Part shown: positions 4,789 through 20,011 of the stretch, one piece after another
How positions within the stretch are numbered: position 1 is the stretch's first letter
Layout of the letters: each line of letters starts with the position of its first letter
Virus record (IMG/VR): IMGVR_UViG_3300037193_002544
Span: 1 to 20,320 of that record
Strand: one strand, 5' to 3'
Length of the DNA stretch: 20,320 nucleotides
DNA from: a virus
Program-made: the position numbers and the translations under genes
The notes under the pieces: model-generated
What the model was told of the DNA's origin: nothing
The model's database searches: none
The model's input: only the letters and a program-made list of their open reading frames with translations

Positions 4789-4796
4789 GGCACCCA

Positions 4797-4839
4797 AAAG
4801 GCCCCCGCCAAAGACATACGAACTTAGGCGGGGGCCTTT
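4797..4839. terminator. Bidirectional terminator between converging operons
   Basis: AAAGGCCCCCGCC (4797-4809) pairs perfectly with GGCGGGGGCCTTT (4827-4839), a 13-bp stem with a 17-base loop. The A-run before and T-run after allow it to work in both directions. It lies nine bases after the plus-strand endonuclease VII stop and about 50 bases beyond the end of the minus-strand holin gene, exactly at the convergence point. Confidence 0.88.
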
Positions 4840-4877
4840 CAGTACCCAAGGTAGCGAACCGGTGGGATCACTACCGA

Positions 4878-4885
4878 GTGTAAGC
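4878..4885 (-). promoter_or_regulatory. Degenerate GTTTACAC-like site (one mismatch)
   Basis: GTGTAAGC on the plus strand (GCTTACAC on the minus strand) differs from the dispersed octamer by one base. It lies in the short gap between the terminator and the holin stop codon. It may be a decayed or weak site, or chance. Confidence 0.25.
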
Positions 4886-4889
4886 GAAC

Positions 4890-5177
4890 TCAGGCCTCGG
4901 AATGGCCGTCGTACGTGTTGTCGAAAGAGACCTCGTCGGGAAGCGCCTCGGCGCCGCCGAACGAGGGACCCTCGCCCGACGTGAATCTGGCGGAGAGGGC
5001 AGAGGTGAGGACGGACAGGATCGCCATGGACAGCGCGGAGCCGCCGATGACCTTCCAGTCGGCCGTGAGTGCGTCGAACGTCGCCGTCGCACCGATCGCT
5101 ACCAGGGCGCCCTGGACGGCGGACTTGGTAGCCCGCTCCGCCGTGGCTGCCCAGAATTCCTTCGTGAAGATGCTCAT
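4890..5177 (-). CDS. Holin, phage r1t-like
   Basis: The start is ATG 5177 (MSIFTKEFW); 95 residues. The N terminus KEFWAATAERATKSAVQGAL closely follows the r1t holin pattern ('W..D..ERA.KT.AQ'). Two membrane segments follow (about 20-36, and 45-66 with ALSMAILSVLTSAL), separated by a DALTADWK turn. The acidic polar C terminus (SGEGPSFGG..., ending GHSEA) is also typical. Holins permeabilise the inner membrane and set lysis timing. It is the last gene of the minus-strand unit, with its own leaderless-type promoter (TACGAT seven bases before ATG) and no Shine-Dalgarno. Confidence 0.85.
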   Translation of the reverse strand: MSIFTKEFWAATAERATKSAVQGALVAIGATATFDALTADWKVIGGSALSMAILSVLTSALSARFTSGEGPSFGGAEALPDEVSFDNTYDGHSEA

Positions 5178-5190
5178 GACCACTATCGTA
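5178..5190 (-). promoter_or_regulatory. Leaderless-type promoter for the holin gene
   Basis: On the minus strand TACGAT (5190-5185) is followed by AGTGGTC (7 nt) and ATG 5177. No -35 hexamer or Shine-Dalgarno is visible. The palindrome CGCTAGCG (5191-5198) abuts the -10 box. Confidence 0.6.
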
Positions 5191-5192
5191 CG

Positions 5193-5507
5193 CTAGCGGA
5201 ACGGTGGAGGGCTGGGAGCCGGGGGAAGTTTGATGCCCGCGTCGGCCATCTTCTGGATGACTGCCTCGTCCCAGGCGATGTGCAGTTCCCATGCTCGCCG
5301 CTGTGCGTCGCGCTCAGCGTTGAAGATCTCGCGCTCGGTCTTCAACTGCCGCTCCAGCGACTCGACGACCCCGGCGGCGGCCCGGGTGATGATCTCGGTG
5401 GCCTCGGCGCCCAACTTCCGCTTCGAGAAGATGCCGTTGACGATGGCGACCAGGATGGCCCCGATACCGCCGCTTGCGAGCGCGGCCACGATGGTCTCAG
5501 TGGTCAT
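5193..5507 (-). CDS. Holin-like protein: one membrane helix plus coiled coil
   Basis: I choose ATG 5507 (MTTETIVAALASGGIGAILV), 104 residues; a longer in-frame start adds only 12 residues without support. One membrane segment (about 6-26) is followed by KRK and a long amphipathic helix rich in Glu/Arg/Ala (about 32-85), then a proline-rich end (LPPAPSPPPFR). This layout fits the second small membrane protein of actinophage lysis cassettes. It overlaps the upstream gene by 11 bases and the two are probably coupled. It might act as a holin partner or antiholin; the sequence does not decide. Confidence 0.6.
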   Translation of the reverse strand: MTTETIVAALASGGIGAILVAIVNGIFSKRKLGAEATEIITRAAAGVVESLERQLKTEREIFNAERDAQRRAWELHIAWDEAVIQKMADAGIKLPPAPSPPPFR

Positions 5508-5988
5508 GACCGGCGTCACCGTCGTTTTCGAGGGCCTCGCCAAAGATCTCCTGCTTGAACTCCTCCTTGGCGGTGTCGATCAACTTCTCGCGATACGCCG
5601 TGTCGATGAGGATTTGCAACTGGACCCAGCGCAGGCCGCAGGCGATCCCCCAGGCGAGGATGATCCCCGCCGACATGTAAGCCCTTTCCCCAGCCAGCCA
5701 GATCAGCATGATCGCGTAGAAGGCGGTGGCCACACACACGGCGACCGATCCGATCTGCTCGATGATGATGCCGTTGATGGTCTGGAGCCACATTCCGATC
5801 AGCGCCGTCGCCGATCCCCCGATGAGGATGGCGCCCCATACGACCACGCCCCAGTGAGGCATGACCGCTTCGAGCGTCCCGGGCTGGGCATCCAGGGCCA
5901 GAGTGATGATCCCCGTGAAGACCGAGAAGGACAGTATGAAGACCGCTCGTGGGTCTGCCGGAAAGCGCGCGGCTGGCTGGAAGATCAT
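5497..5988 (-). CDS. Four-helix membrane protein, probable holin or lysis accessory
   Basis: The start is ATG 5988 (MIFQPAARFPADPRAVF), 163 residues. The frame is open further upstream, but that part crosses a hairpin and lacks start signals. Four membrane segments are visible: about 16-33, 43-68, 74-97 and 101-124. They are followed by an amphipathic tail (EKLIDTAKEEFKQEIFGEAL) ending GDAGHDH. It is the first of three consecutive membrane proteins. It has its own leaderless-type promoter (TATAGT seven bases before ATG) directly after a hairpin and a GTTTACAC site. Confidence 0.62.
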   Translation of the reverse strand: MIFQPAARFPADPRAVFILSFSVFTGIITLALDAQPGTLEAVMPHWGVVVWGAILIGGSATALIGMWLQTINGIIIEQIGSVAVCVATAFYAIMLIWLAGERAYMSAGIILAWGIACGLRWVQLQILIDTAYREKLIDTAKEEFKQEIFGEALENDGDAGHDH

Positions 5989-6001
5989 GATAATCACTAT
6001 A
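5989..6001 (-). promoter_or_regulatory. Leaderless-type promoter for the four-helix membrane protein
   Basis: TATAGT (6001-5996, minus strand) then GATTATC (7 nt) then ATG 5988. TATAGT is the best -10 match of the set. There is no Shine-Dalgarno. Its first base is also the last base of the hairpin at 6001-6030. Confidence 0.65.
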
Positions 6002-6030
6002 CCCCGCCTCTCCGGACGGAAAGACGGGGT
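6001..6030 (-). terminator. Minus-strand hairpin between tail and lysis genes
   Basis: 6001-6013 pairs with 6018-6030 around a four-base loop. In minus-strand RNA all 13 pairs form, two of them G-U wobbles; in plus-strand RNA the same two positions are C-A mismatches. The stem therefore works only for minus-strand transcription. It follows the stop of the 103-aa gene and is followed by AT-rich sequence, without a real U-tract. Confidence 0.62.
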
Positions 6031-6034
6031 CAGT

Positions 6035-6042
6035 GTGTAAAC
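6035..6042 (-). promoter_or_regulatory. GTTTACAC site 3 (intergenic, upstream of lysis genes)
   Basis: The minus strand reads GGCCGTTTACACACTG. It is in the sense orientation, 33 bases upstream of the TATAGT box and just before the hairpin at 6001-6030. Placed to control entry into the lysis cassette. Confidence 0.6.
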
Positions 6043-6064
6043 GGCCGAAGTGTTACCGAGTGGT

Positions 6065-6376
6065 CTAGACCGCGTCGATCCGGGCCTGGAGGAGGGAAAC
6101 CAGCCGCTCCGCGTCGGCCTCGGACAGGATCGGGGTGTCGGCGTCCTCCCCGTCATTCCCGGAGTAGAACTGACGCGGTGTCATGAACAGCGCCTCGTCC
6201 ACAAGGGCCACCGTGTCAGCGAGGTCCCGCTTCACCGAGAGGAGCGGCTCGAAAACGGTCCCGAGCGCCTGCTCCAGCCGGAGCCGTCGGTAATACTCCC
6301 TCTGGATGGCCTCGTTCTTGGCCATCTCAGCCTGGAGTTCTTCGTTGGTCAGTTGCGTGTAGTCTTCGTCTGCCAT
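6065..6376 (-). CDS. Hypothetical protein, 103 aa, helical
   Basis: The start is ATG 6376 (MADEDYTQLTNEELQAEMA), which sits seven bases after the TAGAGT box; the upstream GTG (6385) overlaps that box. The product is acidic and strongly helical, with likely coiled coil in residues 8-60 (ELQAEMAKNEAIQREYYRRL) and a second helix at the C terminus (SEADAERLVSLLQARIDAV). It lies between the large tail protein and the lysis genes. Actinophages often have a small unknown helical protein here. It could be a tail-fibre chaperone, but nothing in the sequence proves it. Confidence 0.65.
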   Translation of the reverse strand: MADEDYTQLTNEELQAEMAKNEAIQREYYRRLRLEQALGTVFEPLLSVKRDLADTVALVDEALFMTPRQFYSGNDGEDADTPILSEADAERLVSLLQARIDAV

Positions 6377-6389
6377 GGCGACCACTCTA
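6377..6389 (-). promoter_or_regulatory. Leaderless-type promoter for the 103-aa gene
   Basis: TAGAGT (6389-6384) then GGTCGCC (7 nt) then ATG 6376. The conserved AGTGGTC heptamer is present at 6386-6380. No Shine-Dalgarno. The box starts six bases after the stop of the upstream tail gene. Confidence 0.55.
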
Positions 6390-6394
6390 TCGGG

Positions 6395-9300
6395 TTAGGG
6401 CACATAGGAGCCGCCGATGCTCATGGAAAGTCCGGCCACCGTGGACGTGAATGCGTTCCCGCTGAGCACGCCAGCCGAGGTGACGAAGATTCGACCTGCG
6501 TACTGGTTTGCCCCGCTGCCGATGGTGGCCGCCCAGATGGCATTGGACTGAGTGGGGCGAAGCGCCGTCGGCAGCGCCGCCGCGATAGAATCTGTACTGG
6601 TGGTCCAGGCGGCACTCTTGGTGACGCGCCCCCTCAGATAGACCACGCCATCCTTCAGGCAATACTGCGGAGTTTCCCCGGAGACACCGCTGAACCCAGA
6701 CCCGCCATTCAGGCTGAAGTTCGTCCACGGGACGTCGTCGAGGTTGGTTCCCGCCAGCCTGTAGGAGCCGTCTCCCTTGAACTGGAGAAGAGGTCCGCTC
6801 CCGTCCGAGGCCGAAGAGATGATCCGCCCCGCCCCAGCGCCGGGGAAGTTGTTGGTTGCCGGGGGGTTGGTCCCGGAGACGACGAGCCCGTTGGCCGGGA
6901 TGATGTAGGTCGTCGTGCCGGAGGCGTTACCGCCCTGGGCCTGGAGGAACATCGACGTACGCCCGGCCGGGAGCGCCAGAGACGCCCCCTTGAAGGCGTA
7001 GAAGCGCCAGCGGTCGGGGTCATCACTGCCCCCAGCGTCCGGCACGCGGGGGAGGGTCGCTCGGATGCCCGAGATCCTCTTCTTCAGGGTGATCGACGCC
7101 AGGGAGGTCAGGTCAGTCTCGTGCGTGCCCGTGCCTCCGGCGTCAGAGTCAAACCAGGTGATCCCGCCATACAACTTGTGATCCGTCTGGGGCCAGGTCC
7201 AGTCGGAGAAGCGGGTCAACTTGCCCGCCGTGTCGATCTGCCAGAAGTGGTCGTCGTCATGACAGAAGCCGACCGGGGAACTCGGGAGCGACCAGCGCTC
7301 GGTCGGGTCCAGGGCGCCACCGGAGCCAGCGGCGAACGTGTAGACGTCGGCGGCCGTGGTGTTCCTGGCCGCCGTGTAGATGTCGGCGCCGACGATCGCG
7401 ACACCAGCCAGGCCGGACTGCCACGAGGAGCGCGAGGTGCCCGTGCCGCCGACCGTGGTGTCTTCCAGCGTCATGGTGCCACTGGGCGTTGTGGTGGGCG
7501 CCAGGCGCTTGTAGACGTTCCGGCCCGAGCCGTCGATGTGAGGGTAGAAGACGTAGAGGCGACTGTTGGCGTTGTTCCAGTAATACTGGGGGTGCACGTC
7601 GGAGGGGACAACGCCGTCGGGGATCCGGTTCAGGATGGTCGAGGCTCCATTGGAGACGTACGCCCAGAAGTTGCCGCCGAACTGACCGGCGAGGAGGTTC
7701 GCGTTCGAGTGTGACCCGGCGTCGTAGATCGGAGTCGCCCACTCGAAGCCCTCCAGGAACGAGACCCAGGGGAGCGTGCCATCGGTCCGCATCCGCCAGA
7801 TGGCGATGCCGCCGCCACGGTTCTCCGTGATGAAGAACTGGCCCCAGTGGCCGTTCCAGACCATGCCGGTGATCTGAGAGGGGTTCAGCGTCGGCCGCGA
7901 GGAGAAGCCGGTCCACGTCTCGGGGACGCGCTGCATGGTGTACTGCTCGTACTCCTGCGTCAGCGTCAGGCCGCCGACGGGCGACTTGACGCCGTCGGAG
8001 AGGGTCACCGTGGCGTCCTTGGCGACCTCAGACTGACCCTCCAGCGAGGCTCCGCCGAAGACCCGAAGCCAGTCGGCCTCGATGCCACCTCGGAACAGCG
8101 GGGTCTCGTTCTCGTCCGTCGGGATCGAGATCTGGACCTGTCCCTGGGCGTTGACCATCCGGATGCCAGAGGAGTCGATCTCGACTCGCCGGGCCGCCAT
8201 GGAGCCGTAGTTGTAGTTGATCGTGTTCAGCGTGTAGAGCCGCAGGCCATGCAGGCCCGGCACCTGGTTGGTGCTGGCCGCGATGTTGCCCGAGGGCCCG
8301 TTGGAGTATTCGGCCCAGAAGACCACCTTGGCGGCTCCGGTCGGCGGCACCAACTGGATGTTCCAGTAGTTCTCCGTCAGATTGGTGATCCCCTGGGCGG
8401 CCAGCGCGGCCACGTCGAAGTCGATGAGCGCCTGGTTGGAGATCAGTACGTTGGCGCCGTCGTACCAGGACGCCGTGAAGGACACGTCGTCGAGCCCGTC
8501 AGCGGCCTGGGTCAGTCCGGCCAGGCCGACGTTGACGAAGAGGCTCTCCAGCGGCCCCAGCGTGGGGACGATCTGCACCGGAGCGACGATGCGAGCCCGC
8601 AGCCCCAGGCCGGATCCGCCCGACTGGGTGGTGATGCGTACGCCGCGCGCCTGCTGGAAGGACTGAGCCTGGCCGGGGATGGCGTAGCGGCCCGGGGTGC
8701 TGAACTTCGAGGGCCCGAAGGCGCCGCCGGACGAAGAGGTCGTGTAAACGCTGGGCGTCCGGACGATGCTGCTGGTCGTGCCGCTCCAGACCGCGCTGGC
8801 CTGCCACACTGCCGAGGTCGGGCTCGGGGAGACGTCGGCCGCCGCGACGGATGCGGGCACCACCGGGTCGGCCCCACCCACCGTAGTGGACTCGACCTTG
8901 CGGAGTTCGGGGAAGACGATCTGGAACCCGCCAGCGTTGGCGAGCATGTGGTTGGCGTTGATCTCCAACTTGATGTAGAGCGTCGTCTGGCCGGTGCCGG
9001 TCCGGATGATCCCCCGGTCGAACTTGGTCAGGTCGGGACGAGGGGTGTCGTCCTTGACAAAGGTCTTCCAGGAGAAGACCTCGGGCGACTGGTAGGAGTC
9101 GTCGGTCGAGACGAACCACTTCACCGAGTTCAGGATGGCGTTGTTGGCGCCTGCGAGCGGCATGTTGGGGTCCATGCCCGGCATCGAGGAGTTCATCTCG
9201 AAGCGGTACTCCGTCAGCGGTTCGACCGTGACGCGAGTGCGAAGGGAGACCTGGCTGGCGGATCCCGTCAGTGCAGCGGTTCGATCCAAGCGTAGAGACT

Positions 9301-10549
9301 GAAGTGATCCGACCGCCATCCGCTGCCAGTAGGGGTCGTCATTCGGCGGCGAGAACTGCTCTGCCACCTTGGACCAACCGGCCGCCGTGCCGTTCGTGTT
9401 CCAGAGCCCTTCGACCGTGGTGACGTCGGTCGACAACTTGTCGGCGGCGAAGGTAGGCAGGAGGTTCGGGTTCAGCGAGGCCGGGTCGAGGCCGTTGTTG
9501 TCCAGGGTGCCCAGGAGCATCTCCGAGGCGAGGATCAGCCGCGCGGCCAACTTGTCAGCGTCGACCGCACCGGCCTGCAACTGACCCACACCCACCGAGT
9601 CGGCCTGCATGTGCCGCGTCGTGATGGCGTCGGTGGCGATGTCGGGGGAGTTGATCTCGACCGACTGCGCGATGGCGGGCATGGAGTCCGGGCCCTGGCC
9701 GTCGGCGTCGTAGGCCACGACCACGCCGTAGAAGTCGACACCGGGGGTGACGGCGCGCTCGATCTCCGGGCCGCCGGGGTCGTCAGGATTCTCTCCGAGG
9801 GCCTCGCGTACGACGGCCTGGGAGATGTTCCCGGCCGCCACCAGGTAGGTGTCGTCGGTCGTCGTGGGGACGTCGCCCGCGCGTACGTAGAGGGCGTACT
9901 CCGTCGGGTCGGCATTGGCGACCTGGGTCCAGCGATAGAAGACAGAGCCGATGCCGCCGGTCCAGGCGATGGTCGGCGCCGCGCTCGGAGGGAAGCCGTC
10001 GGGGGCCGAGCCGGTGTCGATGAGGCTCACTGTGCCGAGGGCGGGCTCCGAGGGGACCGAGAACTTCCCGGACTGGCTCCAGGAGACCAGGATCGCGATG
10101 TAGTCGCCCGGCTCCAGGACCGGAGACACCTCGCCACCGCGCGCGGTCTCGAAGGAGCCGTAGATCTGGGTCTGGTCGAGCGGCGTGAATGTCTCGGGGT
10201 CGTACTCAGCCTCCGGGACGATGTGCACGGTGACGCGGGCCCAGTCCATCGGGCTGAAGACGCCACCCTCGAAGGTGCCGTCCCAGTAGACCCGCAGGGC
10301 GCCCGGCGCCGAGGTGGTCAGCGCCTGGGTGGGAGTCGGGGGCGTCGGGCCGGTGATCGAGGCAGCAGTGTTGGTGCCGTCGAACTGCTCGCCCATCACC
10401 ATCGTCAGGGTCTCGTCGACCCCGTTGGTGGCCTGGATGGCGCCGCCGTCGAGGGTGGAGAAGCCCAGGTTCGGCTGCTTGGTCTGACGGACGTTGTACT
10501 CAAGGTTCTTGAGGCGTCGAGCAAGCGCCATCAGGGCGGGATCCGTCAT
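6395..10549 (-). CDS. Large minor tail protein / tail fibre, probable host-receptor contact
   Basis: 1384 residues from ATG 10549 (MTDPALMALARRLKNLEYN); GTG 10555 is an in-frame alternative but overlaps the -10 box. Residues 1-300 include beta-sandwich, FN3-like stretches (ALRVYWDGTFEGG). About 300-345 is a linker of a type common in siphovirus tail proteins (SPDIATDAITTRHMQADSVG). The middle is beta-rich with an SSGIRMVNAQGQVQISIP segment. About 875-1150 has repeated Trp/Gly/Asp-rich strands that could form a propeller. The last 100 residues (GETPQYCLKDGVVYLRGRVT..., ending GGSYVP) look like a fibre tip domain. Size and position after the tape measure and hub genes support a baseplate fibre. 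Codons near residue 602 contain a GTTTACAC site. Confidence 0.82.
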   Translation of the reverse strand: MTDPALMALARRLKNLEYNVRQTKQPNLGFSTLDGGAIQATNGVDETLTMVMGEQFDGTNTAASITGPTPPTPTQALTTSAPGALRVYWDGTFEGGVFSPMDWARVTVHIVPEAEYDPETFTPLDQTQIYGSFETARGGEVSPVLEPGDYIAILVSWSQSGKFSVPSEPALGTVSLIDTGSAPDGFPPSAAPTIAWTGGIGSVFYRWTQVANADPTEYALYVRAGDVPTTTDDTYLVAAGNISQAVVREALGENPDDPGGPEIERAVTPGVDFYGVVVAYDADGQGPDSMPAIAQSVEINSPDIATDAITTRHMQADSVGVGQLQAGAVDADKLAARLILASEMLLGTLDNNGLDPASLNPNLLPTFAADKLSTDVTTVEGLWNTNGTAAGWSKVAEQFSPPNDDPYWQRMAVGSLQSLRLDRTAALTGSASQVSLRTRVTVEPLTEYRFEMNSSMPGMDPNMPLAGANNAILNSVKWFVSTDDSYQSPEVFSWKTFVKDDTPRPDLTKFDRGIIRTGTGQTTLYIKLEINANHMLANAGGFQIVFPELRKVESTTVGGADPVVPASVAAADVSPSPTSAVWQASAVWSGTTSSIVRTPSVYTTSSSGGAFGPSKFSTPGRYAIPGQAQSFQQARGVRITTQSGGSGLGLRARIVAPVQIVPTLGPLESLFVNVGLAGLTQAADGLDDVSFTASWYDGANVLISNQALIDFDVAALAAQGITNLTENYWNIQLVPPTGAAKVVFWAEYSNGPSGNIAASTNQVPGLHGLRLYTLNTINYNYGSMAARRVEIDSSGIRMVNAQGQVQISIPTDENETPLFRGGIEADWLRVFGGASLEGQSEVAKDATVTLSDGVKSPVGGLTLTQEYEQYTMQRVPETWTGFSSRPTLNPSQITGMVWNGHWGQFFITENRGGGIAIWRMRTDGTLPWVSFLEGFEWATPIYDAGSHSNANLLAGQFGGNFWAYVSNGASTILNRIPDGVVPSDVHPQYYWNNANSRLYVFYPHIDGSGRNVYKRLAPTTTPSGTMTLEDTTVGGTGTSRSSWQSGLAGVAIVGADIYTAARNTTAADVYTFAAGSGGALDPTERWSLPSSPVGFCHDDDHFWQIDTAGKLTRFSDWTWPQTDHKLYGGITWFDSDAGGTGTHETDLTSLASITLKKRISGIRATLPRVPDAGGSDDPDRWRFYAFKGASLALPAGRTSMFLQAQGGNASGTTTYIIPANGLVVSGTNPPATNNFPGAGAGRIISSASDGSGPLLQFKGDGSYRLAGTNLDDVPWTNFSLNGGSGFSGVSGETPQYCLKDGVVYLRGRVTKSAAWTTSTDSIAAALPTALRPTQSNAIWAATIGSGANQYAGRIFVTSAGVLSGNAFTSTVAGLSMSIGGSYVP
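8742..8749 (-). promoter_or_regulatory. GTTTACAC site 4 (inside the large tail protein gene)
   Basis: The minus strand reads AGCGTTTACACGACC, in the sense orientation, encoding S-V-Y-T-T. It is nearly 2 kb from the nearest gene boundary, so it cannot be an ordinary promoter operator; it fits a roadblock (stoperator) role. Confidence 0.55.
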
Positions 10550-10562
10550 AGCCACTATCCTA
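10550..10562 (-). promoter_or_regulatory. Leaderless-type promoter for the large tail protein
   Basis: TAGGAT (10562-10557) then AGTGGCT (7 nt) then ATG 10549. A TG one base before the -10 box (TGATAGGAT) makes an extended -10. AGGA could also act as a weak Shine-Dalgarno here. Confidence 0.6.
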
Positions 10563-10570
10563 TCAGCGGC

Positions 10571-11716
10571 TCAGGACACCAACTTGTCGGAGCGGGCCAC
10601 GGTGTAGCGCGCGACCTTGCCGCTGGCGGGCTCGTAGCCGATGGACAGAATCCGAGCCGTCACGCCGACGTCGCCCCAGTCCGTCCGGCCGCCGACGAAG
10701 ATGGTGTCGCCGACCTGGGCCGCCCCGAGTCGCGCGTTCTCGTGGTCGACCACGGTGAACTCACGGATGTCGGTGAGGTTGCGGCGCCACTGGGCTTCCT
10801 GCTTGGCCCGAGCGTCAGCGCGAGTCCGAGACTTGATGGCGTCGTCCTGCACGATGGCGATCCGGCGCAGGGGGTCGCCGTTTACACGGCCTGGCTCGTG
10901 GATGGACTTGATGCCCGAGGCGCCCTCTCCGGCACCGAGCACCATCACGCCCGTGGCGAACTCCTCGCCGCTGCGGTTGATCTGGGGCACCTGGTGGATG
11001 TTGACCCCGATGGTGAAGCGCAGGTCGTCTCGGACGCGGCCGATCTTGGGGTGCTTGAAGTCGATGACGTGCCCGATGGTGCCGTCTGGCTTCCAGAAGT
11101 GGCGCTCTCGGTAGTCGAAGGAGTTCTCGTTGGCCAGTTCGTCGATCTTGCCCGCGAGGTCGAAGGTGGAGTACCAGTTCAACTTCACCGGGCCGCTCTC
11201 GAAGGAGACGGGCCCCGACTGCGTGTCGAACTCGACCTGCTCCAACTTGGTGCCGATCTTGATGGGCGTGCTCCATGCCGGGATGGTCACCCCGAGGTTG
11301 CCCCCGCGCTGGCTCTGCGCATGGTTCCAGATCACGCCAACGACGGCGGCCGGGTCCACCTGGATCCCGGCGTACCCCGAGCCGGTGTAGGGCAGGTCGC
11401 GCAGGTAGCCGGTGAAGCCAGTGAACTGGAGTGCCCACTCGGCGCCGCTGAAGTTGCCTCCGGTCAGGATCCCGCCTGCGCGAATCTCCCCGTCCGACTC
11501 GGCGTAGAGCGCCGTGGACCACTCGCGGAAGAGGGGCTGGCCATTGGAGGCCCGGACGCGATCGACGGCCGGGGAGATGGTCCCGCTGATGGAGTCGTCG
11601 CCGGAGAGGATCTCCTCGATCTGAACGTTCTCCAAAGGGACGTCGGGGTCGAGAAGCGTCTCGGTGCCGTCGCCGTTGAGCCGCGTGGCGAGGTAGCGCC
11701 AGCCGCGCCGCCTCAC
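10571..11716 (-). CDS. Minor tail protein, Gp37-like hub component
   Basis: The start is GTG 11716 (MRRRGWRYLATRLNGDG), with GAGGA about eight bases upstream and only two bases after the previous stop; 381 residues. The N-terminal half carries VQIEEILSGDDSISGTIS and ALYAESDGEIRAGGILTG, typical of siphovirus hub/baseplate proteins. The C-terminal half has RRIAIVQDDAIKSRTRADARA and GDTIFVGGRTDWGDVGVTARIL. The pattern resembles the 'Siphovirus ReqiPepy6 Gp37-like' family by memory. It would sit at the tail tip between the distal tail protein and the fibres. A GTTTACAC site is in codons for GRVNG. Confidence 0.72.
   Translation of the reverse strand: MRRRGWRYLATRLNGDGTETLLDPDVPLENVQIEEILSGDDSISGTISPAVDRVRASNGQPLFREWSTALYAESDGEIRAGGILTGGNFSGAEWALQFTGFTGYLRDLPYTGSGYAGIQVDPAAVVGVIWNHAQSQRGGNLGVTIPAWSTPIKIGTKLEQVEFDTQSGPVSFESGPVKLNWYSTFDLAGKIDELANENSFDYRERHFWKPDGTIGHVIDFKHPKIGRVRDDLRFTIGVNIHQVPQINRSGEEFATGVMVLGAGEGASGIKSIHEPGRVNGDPLRRIAIVQDDAIKSRTRADARAKQEAQWRRNLTDIREFTVVDHENARLGAAQVGDTIFVGGRTDWGDVGVTARILSIGYEPASGKVARYTVARSDKLVS
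10880..10887 (+). promoter_or_regulatory. GTTTACAC site 5 (inside the Gp37-like gene)
   Basis: GCCGTTTACACGGC, a perfect inverted repeat (GCCGT/ACGGC) around TTAC. Antisense to the gene; coding strand CGT GTA AAC encodes R-V-N within GRVNG. Confidence 0.6.
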
Positions 11717-11718
11717 GA

Positions 11719-12726
11719 TCAGTCCTCGAAGAAGCGTACGTCGATGACGACCTGGGAGCCGGAGTCAAGCCGGATCCGCTGGTCAGTCGTCGGGGAGGCG
11801 GGAGAGGTCTGTCGCCCCTCGATCAAGAGGGTCACGTTGGTGCCAGCCACCGAGGTGACGTCGAACTCTCCGGCGGCCTCCAGGTTCATCCGCATGGGCC
11901 CGGCGACGTTGGCGGTGTTCCAACTGACATCCGGCCCGAGCACGGCTCCCAACTGGAAGCGCAGGTTGCCAGCGGTGGAGGTGTGAGCGTTGACGATCGT
12001 CGCGCCGTTTACACGGCCTGAGACCACGGCCCGCTTGGCCCAGATCGGAACGTCGACATTGGGGAAGTAGCCGCCGCCGGAGTCGCCGGACCAGTTTCCG
12101 TACGATCCGCCGGACGCCATGTAGCGCACCGTCGGGGTGTAGGCCGACCCGGGGGAGGCGAACATGCGCTGGTACTGCCGGGGGTTGGCCAACTTGCGCA
12201 GGTCCGTGATCATCGCGTTGGTGATCGTGGTCGTGCTGGCCGGAACGTTGATGCGCGCCAGGGCGTAGTAGGGGTAGGTGGCCCCAGGGATGCTGGTCGC
12301 GCCAGCACTCACCTCGATCAGGGTGGGGCGCACATACTCGAAGGTTGTCTCCTCGCCCGACGGCGGATCGGAGGCCAGCATCCAGGGGTGGCCGGTCTGA
12401 GCGAACTCAGGGTCGCCGATCACCACGGCCAGGATATACGCCTTCGCCGACGGATTCGAGGCTGGCATCTGGCCGGACGGGATGATGTGCACCGTGGGGT
12501 TCGAGGCGATGTAGGACTCGTTGATCGTCGACTGGTAGCGGTTCAGCACGCTGGCCACTCCGGGCGCGATCTGCACGCCGACGCCAGGGGTCGACAACTG
12601 GGTGACCTTCAGGTCGTCCTTGAGGACGACTCCCTCGCCGCCGCCGTTGGCGTACGCTTCCCGGCGAGCAAGGGCCGAGGTGCTCAGCGCGCCGTCGATG
12701 GCCCAGGCGGACTTTTCAAAGGTCAT
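11719..12726 (-). CDS. Minor tail protein
   Basis: 335 residues from ATG 12726 (MTFEKSAWAIDGALSTSALA). The N-terminal third follows a pattern common in actinophage minor tail proteins: ARREAYANGGGEGVVLKDDLKV, then PGVGVQIAPGVASVLNRY, then a SYIASNPTVH segment. The C-terminal part is beta-rich (NLRFQLGAVLGPDVSWNTAN) and ends IDVRFFED. It lies between the distal tail protein and the Gp37-like hub gene, so a baseplate position is likely. A GTTTACAC site lies in codons for GRVNG, the same peptide as in the neighbouring gene although the proteins are otherwise unlike there. Confidence 0.75.
   Translation of the reverse strand: MTFEKSAWAIDGALSTSALARREAYANGGGEGVVLKDDLKVTQLSTPGVGVQIAPGVASVLNRYQSTINESYIASNPTVHIIPSGQMPASNPSAKAYILAVVIGDPEFAQTGHPWMLASDPPSGEETTFEYVRPTLIEVSAGATSIPGATYPYYALARINVPASTTTITNAMITDLRKLANPRQYQRMFASPGSAYTPTVRYMASGGSYGNWSGDSGGGYFPNVDVPIWAKRAVVSGRVNGATIVNAHTSTAGNLRFQLGAVLGPDVSWNTANVAGPMRMNLEAAGEFDVTSVAGTNVTLLIEGRQTSPASPTTDQRIRLDSGSQVVIDVRFFED
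12007..12014 (+). promoter_or_regulatory. GTTTACAC site 6 (inside a minor tail gene)
   Basis: GCCGTTTACACGGC again with the perfect GCCGT/ACGGC repeat. Antisense to the gene; encodes R-V-N within GRVNG. Confidence 0.6.
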
Positions 12727-12739
12727 AGTGCCTATCCTA
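12727..12739 (-). promoter_or_regulatory. Leaderless-type promoter for the minor tail protein
   Basis: TAGGAT (12739-12734) then AGGCACT (7 nt) then ATG 12726. The box is duplicated (GGATAGGATAGG). AGGA about eight bases before the ATG is a possible weak Shine-Dalgarno. Confidence 0.55.
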
Positions 12740-12744
12740 TCCGA

Positions 12745-13650
12745 TCAGAGTCCGAGGTAGGTGTTGCGCCAGGACACGCTGGCGTACGCCCCGCCGCCGG
12801 TAGCGATCCCGCCCAGTCGAGCCTGAATCTGGGTCTTCGGGGCCAGCCAGATGTCCTCCAGCATGGTCGTCTTCGGGAGCCCCGCAACGGCGGATGCGCC
12901 GGACTGGTTGAGCACCGTGAGCATCCACGGCCGGGCGTCGATCTCGATCCATCCACCGTTGGGGATAGATCCAGCCCAGGACAGAGCCCAGTCGTCGGTC
13001 GTGATACTCGGGTTGGTCCAGGGCCCGTAGAAGCGAATCACGGGGTAGGCCCGTCGAGTGCCGCCCACATAGAAGGCCTGCTCGGTCTCGTCGGATGGCA
13101 GGGTGATCATCGGGAAGATGACCGGGAACTGGAAGCCTGAGGCGCCGGGCTCGGAGGCGAACGGGATGATCACCGTGGTGGCGAGGTCGTCGTAGGTGTT
13201 CGAGTCGGCCAACTCGAAGTCGTGGGTGACGGGGACGTAGCCGCCCAGGATCCGGTTGCTCGGCGGAGCGCTGAAGCGGCGCGGACGGCCGAAGACGCGC
13301 CGGTCCCGGCCGCCGACTCGGTACCGGAGCCCGGTCACAACGCCCGGCTGAAGCATGAGCGCCTCGGGAGCCCAGGCATCCTCGAACTCCTCCAGCGTCT
13401 CCAGGGCGCCCTCGACGTCGTCCCGGTTGATATGCGAGGCCCAGGTCCAGGTCTTGGCGCCCTTGATGTCGCGGCCGAAGCCTCGAACTCCTCGGCGACT
13501 GTTCTGAGAGGTCTGGGTCAGCCACTCGGCGTCGCCCGGGTCGAACCCCTCGCCGTCGACAGAGACGGTCTGCCCGATGCCGAAGACGAAGCCGTCGTTC
13601 GCCTCGGCACTCGGGAGGATCTCGAAGCAGTGCTCGCTCAGGATGCTCAC
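12745..13650 (-). CDS. Distal tail (Dit-like) protein
   Basis: The start is GTG 13650 (MSILSEHCFEILPSAEAND), which overlaps the tape measure stop as GTGA; 301 residues. The open frame continues far upstream only because it shadows the tape measure gene. The product is beta-rich (KTWTWASHINRDDVEGALE, PFASEPGASGFQFPVIFPM, GGWIEIDARPWMLTVLNQS). Immediately after the tape measure is the standard place for the distal tail protein, which joins the tail tube to the baseplate. Family assignment is by position and general pattern. Confidence 0.72.
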   Translation of the reverse strand: MSILSEHCFEILPSAEANDGFVFGIGQTVSVDGEGFDPGDAEWLTQTSQNSRRGVRGFGRDIKGAKTWTWASHINRDDVEGALETLEEFEDAWAPEALMLQPGVVTGLRYRVGGRDRRVFGRPRRFSAPPSNRILGGYVPVTHDFELADSNTYDDLATTVIIPFASEPGASGFQFPVIFPMITLPSDETEQAFYVGGTRRAYPVIRFYGPWTNPSITTDDWALSWAGSIPNGGWIEIDARPWMLTVLNQSGASAVAGLPKTTMLEDIWLAPKTQIQARLGGIATGGGAYASVSWRNTYLGL

Positions 13651-16600
13651 TGGCCGACCCCCGCGTACTTGCCGGACCGGCTCAACTTCTTGAAGGTGAA
13701 GTTGAGGTCGCCAGCCACGTCCTCGGAGGTCAGGTCCGAGCCCTCGAAGTGGGGCTCGTAATGGATGCCGCCGCCGCCAGCCTTCATCGCCTCGAACTGC
13801 GAGTCGGTGAAGATCCGCTCGGGCTTCCCGGTCAGGTTGACCACGGTGGTCAGTCCGGTCGGGAGCATGCCGCCGCTGTCGTACTGCATAGTGCCATTGT
13901 AGGGGAGCGAGGACCCCGGGCTGGCCGTGCTGTCCCCGGCCTCGTAGACCCCGCCGTCGGAGTACCAGTTGTTCCGGTTGTGGAACGCCAACGCCTTGGC
14001 GGGCGAGCCGTAGCGGTCCTTGATGTACTGCGCACCGGCCAGCGTCTGGTCGTAGACCGAGGCGCCCGACTTGATGCCGTACGCCGACCGGGTCGCAGCG
14101 AGGAACTGGAACAGGCCCTCTGCCGTCGAGGTCGGGTTCTTGGCGTTCGGGTTCCAGGAGGACTCCTTCTGGACCAGCGCCACCAGGGCGCTCCACTGGC
14201 TGCCGGAGGCCCAGGACCCGAAGCCACCCTCGCCGAGGGCCTTCCGGGCCTGCTCCTGGACGCTGCCGGTCGCCTTGCCGCCGAGGAGGCCCAGCAGGGT
14301 GCCGACCGGAGACAGGCTGGCCACGTCCGACATCCAGTCCGGGATGCGGTCCTTGAAGGTGTCGACGACGCCCTCGACCAGGGTGCCGGGCATCGCCTGG
14401 AGCACCTTGGCCATGGGGTTGCTGTACGCCTTCTTGAACTTGTCGAGCGAGTCCTCGTACCAGCCCTTGACCATCTTGACCGGACCGCCGAAGAACTCCG
14501 AGATCATCTTCGGGATGTTCCCGCCAGCCTCGGCCCACGGGGAAGCGGGGCCGTAGCCAGCCTTCATGGCGCCAGACAGGAGCGCCATGGCCTGGCCGTA
14601 GGTACCTCCGGGGAAGCCGAAGTGCAGGTGGGGCCCGGTGCTGTTGCCGGTGCTGCCGACGCGACCGAGGAACTGACCGGGCGCGACGCTCTGGCCAGCG
14701 CGGACGCCGATCGCGCTGGAGTGGCCGTAAACCAGGGTGCCGTACTTCGTCGCCTGGAAGACAGCGTCGCCGTAGCCCCGGCCCGAGCCGACGTAGACGA
14801 TCCGGCCGCCGACGGCAGCGTAGTAGGGCTTGCCGTAGTCATTCGGCGAGTTCAGGTCGACGCCATCGTGGCCGGAGTACGTCGAGGCGATGCCGCCGGG
14901 CAGCGGCCAGAAGACGCCGCCCTTGGCGAAGGCCTGGCCGCCCATCATGGCGCGGCGTACGGCGTTCGGTCCACCCATCCGGGCCAGCGCGTTCATCTGG
15001 TTGACCCAGTGCGGGCCCATCGCCTTGGTCCACTCGGGGCGCATGATCGCCTCGCCACCGGACAGGTGGAGGCGACCCGCCGTCGGGGAGTAGAAGTCGT
15101 GGACGTCGCGGCCCGGGGTGTAGCCGGGCAGGACGCCACCAGTGGCGAACCCGTCAGCCGTGCGGCGGTCATCAGCCCCCTTCTTCGCCTTCTTGGTGCT
15201 GAAGGGTGTGATCGTGGGGATGTTGATCTTCAGCCCGGCCGCCTTGGCCAGACCGTTGAAGCCCCGGATGAAGGCATTCAGGACCGAGATCCCGAGGTTC
15301 ACCTGGCCGGTGATCACCTTGCCGAAGCCCTGGAAGATCTGGCCCCAGCCACCGGCCTCGCCGCGCAGGACCTTCGTGAAGCCCTTGACGATGTCGGAGA
15401 ATCCGGAGAAGACCGGCTTGATGGTGTCGCGCCAGATGTCGCGGATCAGCAGACCGGCCGCCTTGAAGACGGAACCAATGGCCTGGAACTGGTCCTTCAG
15501 CCCGCCCTTGCGGCCCCAGATGGTAGACCAGGTCCTGCTCATCAACTGGAAGGTTGGGATGACCACCTTCAGGATCAGCCACGCGATCGCCTTGAACACG
15601 CCGACGATCGTCTTACCGATGGCGTCGAAGAGGACCGGCACGACCTCGCGCCCGAGCCACTCCAGGGCCGGGACGAGGTACTTGAAGACGAACGGCCCGA
15701 TGACCTCGTCCCACAGTTCCTTGATGGCGACGCCCAGTTCGCGGACCGGCTCCTGGATCGGCTTCCAGATCTTCTCCGAGAACTGCTCGCCGAGGAAGGA
15801 CATCAGAGCGCGGACCTTCTCGCGGAAGGTGTCCGAGTTGCTCCACAGGACGACGAAGGCGGCAGCCAGGGCCAGAACGACCCCGATGGCGATAGCGATG
15901 GGCCCGGTCAGCAGGGTGATGCCGGTCAGCAGGGCTCCGGCGCCGGAGACGATCTGGACGAAGCCGAAGACGGCCAGCAGGCCAGCCCCGATGGCCTGGA
16001 GGATGATCGGGTCGAGCCCGGCGAGGAAGTCCAGGAAGTTGCCAAGCCCCTCCAGGATCGCGAGCGAGATCGGCATCATGGCCTGGCCGAAGTGGAACAA
16101 GAAGGTGACGAGGTCGCCGAAGAAGTCGAGCACCTCCGGGCCGATCTTGGCGGCGTTGTCCAGGAAGTCGGTGATCGCCTTCTGGCCCTTCGTGGAGTTG
16201 GCCCACTCGGAGAAGGTATCCGCGAGATCGGCCAGCGCCGCCGAGAAGGCCAGCGTGAAGGGCAGGCTCGCGCGGAGGATCCCGGCGAGCGCCTCCAGGA
16301 ACGAGATGAAGGTGGAGTTCAGGTTGCCCTGGATCTCCGGCGCCAGGTTGGCGAAGGCGCCGAAGAACGCCTGCATCTCCGGGCCGTTTACACTCTCTGC
16401 GAGGTCGGTGAAGAAGGCGCCCATCACGCCCGCCATCGAGAGCATGAAGGCCCGGAAGCCGGGGCCGTTCTTCTCGATGATGTCGGTGAAGGCGGCCTGG
16501 ACGTCGGGGAGGAAGACCTCCTGAATCTCGTTGCGGAGGTCGCGGAAGTCACTCTTGACGCCCATCATGAAGACCGCGAAGTTGCGCCCAGCGTTGCTCA

Positions 16601-18569
16601 ACTTGCCCATGGCAATCTCGGTCGCCGTGGCGGTAGCCGAGACCTCGGCACTGGTCGAGGTCAGAGACTCCTGGGCGCGGCGAAGCGACTCGCGGGCCGA
16701 GGCGATCGAGCGAGCGTTGTCGGCGTTTACACGGGACTGATCCCGAAGCGCGTCGGCGACATCGCGGGCACCCTGCGCACGGGCCTCGTCGACGGCACGA
16801 GAAGCCTCGCCGAGGTCGGTGACGGCGTCGCGCTGTGCCTCGATCGCGTCGGTGAGGCGCTCCTGGGCGGACTTGACGACGTCGGAGCCCTCGACGCCCT
16901 CCTTGTCCCACTTCTTCTTCTCCTCGGCCAGTCGAGAGCCCTCCAGCCGGAGACGCTCCTGCTGGAGTTTGGCCTGCTCCCAGTTGATGCGAGCCTGCTC
17001 GACCTCGGCGTTAGTCGCGGAGCCGTCGGCGCGGGCGGCGTCGAAGGCCACCTTGGCGTCGAACTCGTTGAGGAGGCCCTCCTCCTGGGCCAACTTGTTG
17101 CCCCGGATCTGGAGTCCGAGGTCCTGGGCGTCGGCGCGGGCCTGCTTGCGGGCCTCCTGGAGGGCGACCTCGGCCTCGCGCACGGACCGAATCGAGTCGG
17201 CGTACGCCTCCTGGGCCTCGCGCTGGCGCTCAAGGGCGTCCTGGATGCTGTCGGCGGCCGACTCGCGGGCGTCGGCAACGCGCCGTGCTGCATCCTCGGC
17301 GGCCTGGGCGGCGCTGCGCTCGGCGTCGGCGAGGGCCTTGCGGGCGTCGGAGACGGCGTACGTCGCCTGCTTGATCGAGTCGCCCTGGGCCTTCATCTCC
17401 TTGCCGGAGGCGTCGGCCTGGTTCTGCATCGCCGTCATGGCATCGCCGAGGCCGGAGAAGCCGAACGCGAGCGCGGCGATGCCGGTGCTGGCCACGAGGC
17501 CCGAGGTGCCGAGTGCCAGGATGCCACCGGCTGCCGCCGAGGTGAGGGCGGGCATGACCGACAGGGTGCCGACGACGGCGATCAGGAACGGGTTGAAGAC
17601 GCGGAAGGAGTTGGCCGCCTGGAGCCCGTCCTGGTGCAGGCCCTTGAGGCCGCGACCAAGGAGTCCGGCCGCGCGGTGGGCCTTGCCGGTCTCCTGGACG
17701 AAGGAGCGCAGGCCGCGCTCGGCTGCCGAGACGTCGATGAGGTCGCGGGCGTTGATCCGCTTCGAGCGGCCGACTCGGCGGATGGTGTCGTAGAGCCGGT
17801 TGGCGGCCTTGGCGGCGTCGGCCTCGCTGATGTCGATCCCGACCCGCATGGTCGAGAGTCGCTCCATCTCGCGACGAGCACCCGCGAGCGCTCCGGAGGC
17901 GTCCTTGGAGATCGCCTCGGAGGCCTTCTTCATCTCCTTCTGGAAGGAGCGCGCGAACGTGCCAGCGGTACGCTCCCACTCCTTCTGGCGGACCTCTGCG
18001 ATCTCCTTCTCGGCCTTGATGGCCTCGGCCCGCATCCGGGCGTTGGCGGCCTCAGTCGTGGCGATGTGGCGATCGAGTGCGGCCTTGGCGGCCCGGGCCG
18101 AGGTGTCGGCTTCCGACTTGGTCTTCTCGATCTCCCGGGCCAACTTGTCGGCCTCGGCCCACTCCTTGCGGGTCTGCTTCTCGAAGAGGTCGGCGCGGTT
18201 CTTGGCGGCCTTGGCGTCGCCCTCCATCTGGTCGCGCAGGCGCTTCTGCTCGGCCTCACGGAGGGCGTTCTCGTCCTTGATCTGCTGAGCGTTGGCGTCG
18301 CGAGCCTGCTTCACCTTGGCATCGGCGATGCGCTTGGCGGCGGCGAGTTCTTCCTTCTCGGCCTTCGCGCGCTCGCGGGCGTTGATCTTCGAGATCTCGC
18401 CAGCGGTCAGTTCCGCCTGCTTGACGTGCTCGCGGCCGACGTCGGCGGCGTCCTTCTTGGCGCGGGCGTTGGCCTTCTCTGCCTCGCGAGCGATCTCGTT
18501 CTGGAAGTCCTTGAAGACCGGGACCACCGATACGAAGATGCTGCCGGTGGAGAAGCCCTCCGAAGCCAT
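13647..18569 (-). CDS. Tape measure protein with M23 peptidase and transglycosylase-like domains
   Basis: 1640 residues from ATG 18569, with GGAGGGG just upstream. Residues about 20-260 and 395-660 are long Ala/Glu/Arg/Lys coiled coils. Hydrophobic stretches lie at about 320-375 and 845-920. At about 1230-1325 is an M23 zinc endopeptidase: GHDGVDLNSP (H...D), a YGTLVYGHSSAIGVRAGQ segment and STGNSTGPHLHFG (HxH). At about 1465-1500, LVQKESSWNP...STAEGLFQF resembles a lytic transglycosylase with catalytic Glu in KESSW. The protein sets tail length and its C-terminal enzymes probably open peptidoglycan during infection. Using the usual 0.15 nm per residue the tail would be roughly 250 nm. Two GTTTACAC sites lie inside the gene. 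Confidence 0.93.
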   Translation of the reverse strand: MASEGFSTGSIFVSVVPVFKDFQNEIAREAEKANARAKKDAADVGREHVKQAELTAGEISKINARERAKAEKEELAAAKRIADAKVKQARDANAQQIKDENALREAEQKRLRDQMEGDAKAAKNRADLFEKQTRKEWAEADKLAREIEKTKSEADTSARAAKAALDRHIATTEAANARMRAEAIKAEKEIAEVRQKEWERTAGTFARSFQKEMKKASEAISKDASGALAGARREMERLSTMRVGIDISEADAAKAANRLYDTIRRVGRSKRINARDLIDVSAAERGLRSFVQETGKAHRAAGLLGRGLKGLHQDGLQAANSFRVFNPFLIAVVGTLSVMPALTSAAAGGILALGTSGLVASTGIAALAFGFSGLGDAMTAMQNQADASGKEMKAQGDSIKQATYAVSDARKALADAERSAAQAAEDAARRVADARESAADSIQDALERQREAQEAYADSIRSVREAEVALQEARKQARADAQDLGLQIRGNKLAQEEGLLNEFDAKVAFDAARADGSATNAEVEQARINWEQAKLQQERLRLEGSRLAEEKKKWDKEGVEGSDVVKSAQERLTDAIEAQRDAVTDLGEASRAVDEARAQGARDVADALRDQSRVNADNARSIASARESLRRAQESLTSTSAEVSATATATEIAMGKLSNAGRNFAVFMMGVKSDFRDLRNEIQEVFLPDVQAAFTDIIEKNGPGFRAFMLSMAGVMGAFFTDLAESVNGPEMQAFFGAFANLAPEIQGNLNSTFISFLEALAGILRASLPFTLAFSAALADLADTFSEWANSTKGQKAITDFLDNAAKIGPEVLDFFGDLVTFLFHFGQAMMPISLAILEGLGNFLDFLAGLDPIILQAIGAGLLAVFGFVQIVSGAGALLTGITLLTGPIAIAIGVVLALAAAFVVLWSNSDTFREKVRALMSFLGEQFSEKIWKPIQEPVRELGVAIKELWDEVIGPFVFKYLVPALEWLGREVVPVLFDAIGKTIVGVFKAIAWLILKVVIPTFQLMSRTWSTIWGRKGGLKDQFQAIGSVFKAAGLLIRDIWRDTIKPVFSGFSDIVKGFTKVLRGEAGGWGQIFQGFGKVITGQVNLGISVLNAFIRGFNGLAKAAGLKINIPTITPFSTKKAKKGADDRRTADGFATGGVLPGYTPGRDVHDFYSPTAGRLHLSGGEAIMRPEWTKAMGPHWVNQMNALARMGGPNAVRRAMMGGQAFAKGGVFWPLPGGIASTYSGHDGVDLNSPNDYGKPYYAAVGGRIVYVGSGRGYGDAVFQATKYGTLVYGHSSAIGVRAGQSVAPGQFLGRVGSTGNSTGPHLHFGFPGGTYGQAMALLSGAMKAGYGPASPWAEAGGNIPKMISEFFGGPVKMVKGWYEDSLDKFKKAYSNPMAKVLQAMPGTLVEGVVDTFKDRIPDWMSDVASLSPVGTLLGLLGGKATGSVQEQARKALGEGGFGSWASGSQWSALVALVQKESSWNPNAKNPTSTAEGLFQFLAATRSAYGIKSGASVYDQTLAGAQYIKDRYGSPAKALAFHNRNNWYSDGGVYEAGDSTASPGSSLPYNGTMQYDSGGMLPTGLTTVVNLTGKPERIFTDSQFEAMKAGGGGIHYEPHFEGSDLTSEDVAGDLNFTFKKLSRSGKYAGVGQ
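16386..16393 (+). promoter_or_regulatory. GTTTACAC site 7 (inside tape measure gene)
   Basis: GGCCGTTTACACTCTC; antisense; coding strand AGT GTA AAC encodes S-V-N in AESVNGPEM. Only 339 bases from site 8. Confidence 0.55.
16725..16732 (+). promoter_or_regulatory. GTTTACAC site 8 (inside tape measure gene)
   Basis: GGCGTTTACACGGGAC; antisense; coding strand CGT GTA AAC encodes R-V-N in QSRVNADN. Confidence 0.55.
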
Positions 18570-18581
18570 GTGCCCCTCCAG

Positions 18582-18589
18582 GTGTAAAC
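18582..18589 (-). promoter_or_regulatory. GTTTACAC site 9 (between tape measure promoter and gene)
   Basis: The minus strand reads GCGCGTTTACACCTGG, sense orientation, downstream of the putative -10 at 18610-18605 and just before the Shine-Dalgarno and ATG 18569. A classic position for repression of initiation or early elongation. Confidence 0.65.
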
Positions 18590-18597
18590 GCGCTGAC

Positions 18598-18610
18598 GAC
18601 CACTAGTCTA
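18598..18610 (-). promoter_or_regulatory. Promoter for the tape measure gene
   Basis: TAGACT (18610-18605) followed by AGTGGTC, with an extended -10 TG (TGATAGACT). The same box as in the leaderless set, but here a transcript starting seven bases downstream would have a leader of about 28 nt with a proper Shine-Dalgarno. It overlaps the stop codon region of the upstream chaperone gene. Confidence 0.5.
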
Positions 18611-19321
18611 TCAGCGGTTCGGCAGCATCCTGGCCACTAGTTTCTCGTGCTTCGCCTTGCGGTGCTCGAACTTCATCTTGTCCACCTGACGCTTCAGGTC
18701 GGACTGCGGGCGCGGCGCGAATACGGGCTCGGGGACCTTCCTCTCGGCGTGGATCGACGCCGTCAGGTGGGCGAGTTCCTTCAGCGCGTCGTGAATGTCG
18801 GTCAGTTTGGCAACCTCGGGAGACCAGGTGCTGAGCGCAGGGGAGGCCTCCGCCTTGCTCTCGCCGCTGAACTCCGCCTCGGCCAACTGCTTGGCGAGGA
18901 GCGCTACGTGCTCGGGATCTTCCGAGACAGCCTGGGCATACCAGGTGTGTGACGGCAGCCGATCGATATAGCCCAGGAGTCGACCCCATCGGCGGTGCAG
19001 CCAGAGTTCTTCCAGATCCACGCCAAGATGGTTCCGGAGGTCGTACTCCAGGGCCTCTTCGTAGTGGTCGACGACATAGGTCAGCCGAATGGCGGCGTTG
19101 ATCTCGGGCAGGTCGTACGCCGCGCGCCAGAGATTGTGGATCGTCTCGATCGAGTAGATGGAGATTTTCTTGTCGTGCAAGCCATCAAAGATGCGGTCTC
19201 GAAGGATCGCCAGAACCTCTTGGTAACCCATCAGACGCGGATCGGGCAGCACGACGTCTTCGAGCCAGGCCTCCTTGGTCAGGATCACCTTCTCGGCGCG
19301 CAGGTCGAAGTCATCGATCAT
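18611..19321 (-). CDS. Tail assembly chaperone, second (T-type) gene
   Basis: 236 residues from ATG 19321 (MIDDFDLRAEKVILTKEAW). The stretch RWGRLLGYIDRLPSHTWYAQAVSEDPEHVALLA matches the region of actinophage second chaperone frames that reads 'L..LID.LP..S....A...D'. The position directly upstream of the tape measure gene is also right. In most siphophages this part is made only as a fusion, by frameshifting from the gene before; here an in-frame TAA (19327-19325) lies two codons before the ATG, so it must start independently. GGAGG (19337-19333) is 11 bases from the ATG, longer than optimal. The TAA is part of GTTTACAC site 10. Confidence 0.75.
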   Translation of the reverse strand: MIDDFDLRAEKVILTKEAWLEDVVLPDPRLMGYQEVLAILRDRIFDGLHDKKISIYSIETIHNLWRAAYDLPEINAAIRLTYVVDHYEEALEYDLRNHLGVDLEELWLHRRWGRLLGYIDRLPSHTWYAQAVSEDPEHVALLAKQLAEAEFSGESKAEASPALSTWSPEVAKLTDIHDALKELAHLTASIHAERKVPEPVFAPRPQSDLKRQVDKMKFEHRKAKHEKLVARMLPNR

Positions 19322-19322
19322 C

Positions 19323-19330
19323 GTTTACAC
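19323..19330 (+). promoter_or_regulatory. GTTTACAC site 10 (one base before the second chaperone ATG)
   Basis: ATCGTTTACACGGCCTCC. Antisense to the gene; on the coding strand it reads GTGTAAAC between the Shine-Dalgarno and the ATG and supplies the in-frame TAA that isolates the second chaperone. Confidence 0.6.
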
Positions 19331-19344
19331 GGCCTCCAGACGTG

Positions 19345-19392
19345 GAATGCCGCCCCCTTCGCTGCTGTACATCCAGCGCGGGGGCGGCGTTC
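19345..19392 (-). terminator. Strong hairpin between the two chaperone genes
   Basis: 19345-19357 pairs with 19380-19392: nine GC pairs (GCCGCCCCC/GGGGGCGGC) plus three outer pairs after one mismatch in minus-strand RNA. A four-pair inner stem (19361-19364 with 19374-19377) may add to it. No U-tract follows on the minus strand. It could be a partial terminator or attenuator lowering expression of the downstream gene. Confidence 0.5.
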
Positions 19393-19400
19393 GTGGGGGA

Positions 19401-19996: not shown

Positions 19997-20011
19997 GGCT
20001 TCAGAATAACA

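Follow-up and report, generated by a model that had tools for sequence, protein, structure and literature searches.

The complete IMG/VR virus record IMGVR_UViG_3300037193_002544, a stretch of 20,320 bases with a GC content of 66% (referred to below as the window), carries on its minus strand a series of TANNNT hexamers that end 6 or 7 nucleotides (nt) ahead of the start codons of tail and lysis genes and look like -10 boxes. The record is probably a fragment of a larger genome, and its nearest relatives are ~60 kb in length. The genes form two convergent blocks: the plus strand, from position 1 to ~4,790, encodes an exonuclease and an endonuclease VII among others, and the minus strand, from 20,301 to 4,890, encodes tail and lysis proteins (Table 1; genes are named here by the position of their start codons). 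The relatives and related records come from phages that infect Arthrobacter, Gordonia, Streptomyces and other actinobacteria, and the window itself probably belongs to an uncultivated actinobacterial phage. The tail-fibre-like protein 10549 gave weak PHROG matches, solely to families of unknown function, and the product of gene 6376 had no match in PHROG or Pfam searches.

A preliminary description of the window had reported five TANNNT boxes exactly 7 nt before an ATG, and all five are indeed present on the minus strand. Its list is genuine but omits a sixth box, TATTCT, at the intergenic start of gene 19996, and a related box, TAGACT, ahead of the tape-measure gene. Altogether, 6 of the 21 genes in the window carry a box of the leaderless type, with the first T of TANNNT 12 to 13 bp ahead of the start codon. 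Upstream stop codons end 15 to 26 nt ahead of five of the six boxed starts, so that box and start take up the entire intergenic gap at these five. The minus strand holds 28 TANNNT and 192 ATG. The arrangement TANNNT-N(k)-ATG occurs five times at k = 7, twice at k = 6 and at most once at every other k from 0 to 25, and it is absent from the plus strand at k = 6 to 7. A pattern search over the whole window found 5 occurrences where 0.87 were expected, and none of 100 shuffles reached 5. A box at 7 nt precedes 5 of 13 minus-strand gene starts, compared to 1 of 433 other ATG or GTG codons (Fisher p = 5e-8), and none of the non-gene ATG on that strand (0/192). When the upstream regions of 22 starts (three of them approximate) were shuffled, five boxes at any single spacing arose in 1 of 100,000 shuffles. 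The earlier claim of five in five, not by chance, thus stands in that the association is far beyond chance (p ~5e-8); the five were a chosen subset, however, and the real count is 5 (6 with spacing 6) of 13 minus-strand genes. The fixed motif GATAGTGG was not enriched as such in the window.

Table 1. Genes, boxes and other elements of the window
Feature	Position	Strand	Remarks
Boxed gene just ahead of the tail assembly chaperone genes, 83 aa	19745..19996	minus	Homologues with boxed starts in L130, L052, L061
Tail assembly chaperone	start 19321	minus	Gene of the tail/lysis block
Tape measure protein, 1640 aa	13647..18569	minus	Peptidase_M23 and SLT domains; homologues in L130, L052, L061, L131
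Tail protein adjoining the tape measure			Minus-strand block
Boxed minor tail protein, 335 aa	11719..12726	minus	phrog_25212 minor tail protein, 3.3e-33
Minor tail protein	start 11716	minus	Tail/lysis block
Boxed large tail-fibre-like protein, 1384 aa	6395..10549	minus	Role inferred from size and position
Boxed gene of unknown function, 103 aa	6065..6376	minus
Boxed membrane protein, 163 aa	5497..5988	minus	Weak match to phrog_5552 membrane protein
Boxed holin, r1t type, 95 aa	4890..5177	minus	PF16945, 1.2e-14; phrog_443 holin
-10-like box TATTCT	20008-20003	minus	6 nt ahead of ATG 19996
Leadered box TAGACT	18605..18610	minus	35 nt ahead of tape-measure ATG 18569; Shine-Dalgarno motif present
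-10-like box TAGGAT	12739-12734	minus	7 nt ahead of ATG 12726 (minor tail protein)
-10-like box TAGGAT	10562-10557	minus	7 nt ahead of ATG 10549 (tail-fibre-like)
-10-like box TAGAGT	6389-6384	minus	7 nt ahead of ATG 6376
-10-like box TATAGT	6001-5996	minus	7 nt ahead of ATG 5988 (membrane protein)
-10-like box TACGAT	5190-5185	minus	7 nt ahead of ATG 5177 (holin)
Strong RNA hairpin	5995..6035	minus	Lies in the 76-nt gap ahead of gene 5988, with TATAGT in its 3' arm; fold of 86 nt, -39.6 kcal/mol (z -4.7)
GTTTACAC copies	3148, 4155, 6035, 8742, 10880, 12007, 16386, 16725, 18582, 19323	both

Strong Shine-Dalgarno (SD) pairing was found at none of the six boxed starts. Near the start, the energies of pairing with the 16S tail lie between -2.7 and -6.5 kcal/mol for four genes with a box at 7 nt, and the value of -7.1 kcal/mol at gene 5988 stems from a GGCGGGG that lies too far upstream; several unboxed genes of the window have clear GGAGG-like SD sites near -10 kcal/mol. 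To say, as had been done before, that three of the five starts have no SD at all is a fair description, given the AGGA inside the two TAGGAT boxes.

Related phages were hard to find with single queries. A close-DNA search among phages returned a 174-bp piece of the tape-measure gene as its sole match, single-protein searches of viral contigs with protein 10549 and with the tape-measure protein gave no match, and neither did protein 11716 alone against viral and genome contigs. The relatives were reached by two alignment-based scans instead; their compared proteins are ~35 to 46% identical to those of the window, and the DNA is ~67 to 71% identical where it can be aligned. We pooled 148 other tail-module loci with 2,395 called genes (duplicates removed; genes called by a codon-score caller trained on the window). 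In this pool, TANNNT stands 6 nt ahead of the start at 30 genes and 7 nt ahead at 17, compared to a mean of ~3.8 at other spacings, and the enrichment ratios at these two positions, 8.0 and 4.6, exceed those of all other combinations of the 64 XYNNNZ patterns and 31 positions. SD-related patterns peak at spacings other than 6 to 7 nt. An SD motif precedes only 1 of these 47 boxed starts, compared to 1451 of 2379 genes overall (61%), and a pyrimidine stands immediately before the start in 43 of the 47, compared to 59% in the background. Furthermore, TTGAC with at most one mismatch lies upstream of the pool boxes five times at 17 nt, twice at 18 nt and not more than once at every other spacing. 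This -35 peak is not tied to how the boxed sites were chosen and is the strongest sequence argument that the boxes are promoters. About 2% of the genes in the pooled modules are boxed; the rate of 6/21 in the window is far higher and similar to that of an actinobacterial host.

The preliminary description had proposed aligning the same intergenic regions in related phages, and the comparison with relatives bears out what the leaderless-promoter reading predicts: not only does the peak at 6 to 7 nt recur, but the box is kept at the same genes in divergent relatives (designated here by L numbers). The start of the gene ahead of the chaperone genes is boxed in the window, L130, L052 and L061. A box precedes the tail-fibre gene in the window (TAGGAT, 7 nt), L130 (TAGAAT, 6 nt, GTG start), L061 (TAAGCT, 7 nt) and L135 (TAACAT, 6 nt), and in several other relatives an SD-like motif or an overlapping start takes its place. 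Across relatives, the boxes have only the T, A and T of TANNNT in common. With identities this low and hexamers that change, it is the position and the TA...T that are kept, and the other bases of the box vary. Homologues of gene 12726 have an SD in nearly all compared relatives and a box in the window only, and the L052 homologue of the membrane-protein gene 5988 has an SD-like AAGGG in place of the box. It looks as if box and SD substitute for each other at the same gene starts.

The tape-measure gene offers a second line of evidence. TAGACT lies upstream of its SD-led start at 35 nt in the window, 41 nt in L130, 39 nt in L061 and 35 nt in L131, and other hexamers occur in L052 (TACCAT at 40 nt) and L133 (TAGAGT at 44 nt). 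Only 6 of 1649 SD-led genes have TAGACT in that distance range. The box has the appearance of a conserved promoter whose transcript would begin with a short leader (~30 nt). The same element thus sits away from the start codon where an SD is present, which argues that the boxes act in transcription.

In sum, our data make it likely that the boxes are the -10 elements of serial internal promoters of the sigma-A type in the leftward tail/lysis operon, most of which would give leaderless mRNA. The peak at 6 to 7 nt in relatives, the boxed starts without SD, the pyrimidine before the start and the TTGAC at 17 to 18 nt all support the proposal of leaderless promoters made in the preliminary description, and a transcription start at or next to the A of ATG, as it had suggested, is predicted from a spacing that is conserved in the relatives. 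At the window sites, the -10 element and its distance to the start codon fit a SigA-type leaderless promoter; the -35 element was not found. In our model, promoters would be placed at most non-overlapping gene junctions of the operon. At six genes, a -10 box 6 to 7 nt before the ATG would make RNA polymerase initiate on its A or on a neighbouring base. The resulting leaderless mRNA would be translated via direct recognition of the 5'-terminal AUG. On a long read-through mRNA, SD-poor genes would be translated poorly and need their own transcript, and therefore each boxed gene without a good SD probably depends on one. Ahead of the tape-measure gene, where such a box lies at 35 nt, the transcript would have a short leader with a normal SD. 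Hence, the late genes would seem not to be expressed solely as one long operon but to be turned on individually by leaderless promoters. A more far-reaching version, in which leaderless initiation is a late-infection switch, strikes us as unlikely: SD-less virion and lysis genes would be silent on read-through mRNA and expressed only from their own activator-dependent late promoters, setting tail stoichiometry and lysis timing gene by gene.

Several observations weigh against sigma-A-type promoters at the boxes. No TTGACA-like hexamer lies at 15 to 19 nt from the six leaderless-type boxes of the window (best match, 3/6), a sigma-70 scan of the window returned no promoter, and the middle bases of the window boxes are far from TATAAT. 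Both TAGGAT boxes contain AGGA, a weak SD at usable distance. In the complete records of four relatives, taken without gene filtering, plain TANNNT-N7-ATG was not clearly above a reversed-pattern control (8 versus 6 in G002).

The missing -35 speaks in favor of a phage-specific late promoter, for which host sigma-A alone would not be sufficient and a phage activator or sigma factor would be needed; the transcripts would still be leaderless. Moreover, five of seven boxes share more than TANNNT, namely, GATAG, often followed by AGTGG, and on the leftward strand from 4,800 to 20,320 all seven GATAG and all eight ATAG fall at these boxes. Because of this sharing and the lack of a -35 in the window, a phage-specific activator or a change of RNA polymerase is possible. 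However, ATAG is partly depleted in coding DNA through codon use and the stop codon TAG, relatives boxed at the same genes have an ordinary TTGAC at 17 nt without the AGTGG extension, and no activator gene is visible in the 20-kb fragment. We regard this alternative as doubtful, although it is the most serious one.

A translation-only element, comparable to the start-associated sequences (SAS) of Cluster K mycobacteriophages, would account for a box that replaces the SD and keeps a constant spacing to the start codon, and the AGGA in two of the boxes would suit it. Yet the Cluster K element is a conserved 13-mer with AGGAG (PMC3203893), whereas just T, A and T are kept across the relatives studied here. 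A box at 35 to 41 nt from an SD-led start, as seen at the tape-measure gene, is not expected of an element that acts in translation only, for which the -35 peak in the relatives would be meaningless as well. This explanation is very unlikely. Of about the same low probability is the idea that the true starts are in-frame GTG codons 6 to 9 nt upstream and the boxes incidental. Such a GTG lies 6 or 9 nt ahead of the ATG in four of the five genes with a box at 7 nt (5183, 5997, 6385 and 10555), where a gene caller may choose it, and gene finding by coding score prefers three (5183, 5997 and 6385). Genes 12726 and 19996 have no such GTG, however, no SD precedes the others, and the boxed starts of the relatives align with residue 1 of the ATG reading at the gene ahead of the chaperone genes and within two or three residues of it at the tail fibre. 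Chance, or a side effect of AT-rich gaps and of stop codons upstream, is next to negligible: the gaps have a higher AT content than coding DNA (GC of the upstream regions, 63% on average) and TANNNA does form stop-plus-SD peaks at 8 to 9 nt in the pool, but shuffled upstream sequences almost never yield five boxes, the TANNNT peak has a spacing unlike that of the stop-plus-SD peaks and belongs to genes without SD, and no window box is the stop codon of an upstream gene.

Read-through RNA would fold into the very stable hairpin in front of gene 5988, and the leaderless RNA would begin after it; the structure, which is without a T run, could keep transcription of the tail genes apart from that of the lysis genes. 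Another strong hairpin, formed by GGCCCCCGCC at 4796-4840 between the convergent gene blocks, is probably a terminator. Related sequences, GCTAGCG(TACGA)TAGTGGTC and GCTAGCGCTAGTGGTC, lie ahead of the holin gene (5170-5200) and gene 19996 (20000-20030), and at both junctions the upstream gene ends with the TAG of GCTAGCG. Within the tape-measure frame, TACAAT at 13901 stands 6 nt ahead of an in-frame ATG (13889), which may be chance or an internal leaderless start. L051, from another phage lineage (GC, 59%), has boxed starts too, six or more of them on a single strand (TAGGAT, TAAGAT, TAGAGT and TACGAT ahead of ATG or GTG); the window-trained gene caller performs poorly on this locus.

A further repeat, the exact 8-mer GTTTACAC, has 10 copies on both strands of the window, compared to 0.08 expected, and only 3 copies with one mismatch. 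It is also repeated in L130, L131, L057, L059, L060, L108, L137, L152 and L165, with 18 copies in the 46-kb record behind L057 and zero matches of a reversed control. One copy lies upstream of the tape-measure gene, after TAGACT and ahead of the SD, at nearly the same position in the window (18582-18589) and in L131 (3008-3015), placed as an operator in the 5' leader would be. GTTTACAC is a candidate scattered operator- or stoperator-like element; a literature search found no published stoperator that matches it.

Late operons of actinophages are commonly drawn as a single long transcript with SD-led genes. If the boxes work as proposed, tail and lysis genes have promoters of their own, and a large number of annotated starts would have to be corrected. 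A box plus an absent SD is a simple rule that can be used on the large collection of actinophage genomes, and it leads to a testable claim on what determines the ratios of virion proteins and the timing of lysis. It also bears on how phages use the leaderless translation route, which is strong in actinobacteria.

In Actinobacteria, TANNNT ~12 bp before the start is a published computational mark of leaderless genes (PMC3160421). In Streptomyces lividans, the distance from the -10 element to the start is 5 to 7 nt in 88.7% of leaderless transcripts, +1 is a purine in 97.1%, and 17% of primary transcripts are leaderless (PMC8079986); in mycobacteria, the share is 14% of genes (PMC7148126). The window sites resemble these TA-led genes in the TANNNT core, the first T 12 to 13 nt ahead, the lack of an SD and the purine at the presumed +1. 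The host genes are chromosomal, however, and make up ~14 to 21% of genes or transcripts, whereas the boxes described here (~6/21 genes) lie in a phage tail/lysis operon. A -35 (TTGACn) ~16 to 17 nt upstream is found in only part of the host promoters and is not strictly defining; the window sites are without it, and the relatives peak at 17 nt. The Cluster K SAS are likewise repeated just ahead of start codons, but they have a 13-bp consensus, GGGATAGGAGCCC, with an SD core (AGGAG) and are restricted to the non-structural half of the genome. No sequence upstream of the boxed genes fits GGGATAGGAGCCC, and AGGAG is absent at the boxed starts of the window. In mycobacteriophage Adephagia, one putative leaderless promoter, P90, has been proposed (PMC11373665); it too is predicted for a phage gene in an actinobacterial host, but this is a single non-structural gene of a toxin-antitoxin-like pair. 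The Cluster O mycobacteriophages such as Corndog have three predicted leaderless SigA promoters, PL1, PR2 and PL2 (PMC4351075), of which PL2 lies inside the structural operon like the boxes of the window. There are three per genome, however, and PL2 serves an oppositely oriented gene, whereas the window has six in series on the operon's own strand, ahead of virion and holin genes. A series in a phage tail/lysis operon had been called unusual in the preliminary description; predicted leaderless promoters as such were already known from the Corndog-type phages, and what is new here is their number, their placement and their conservation.

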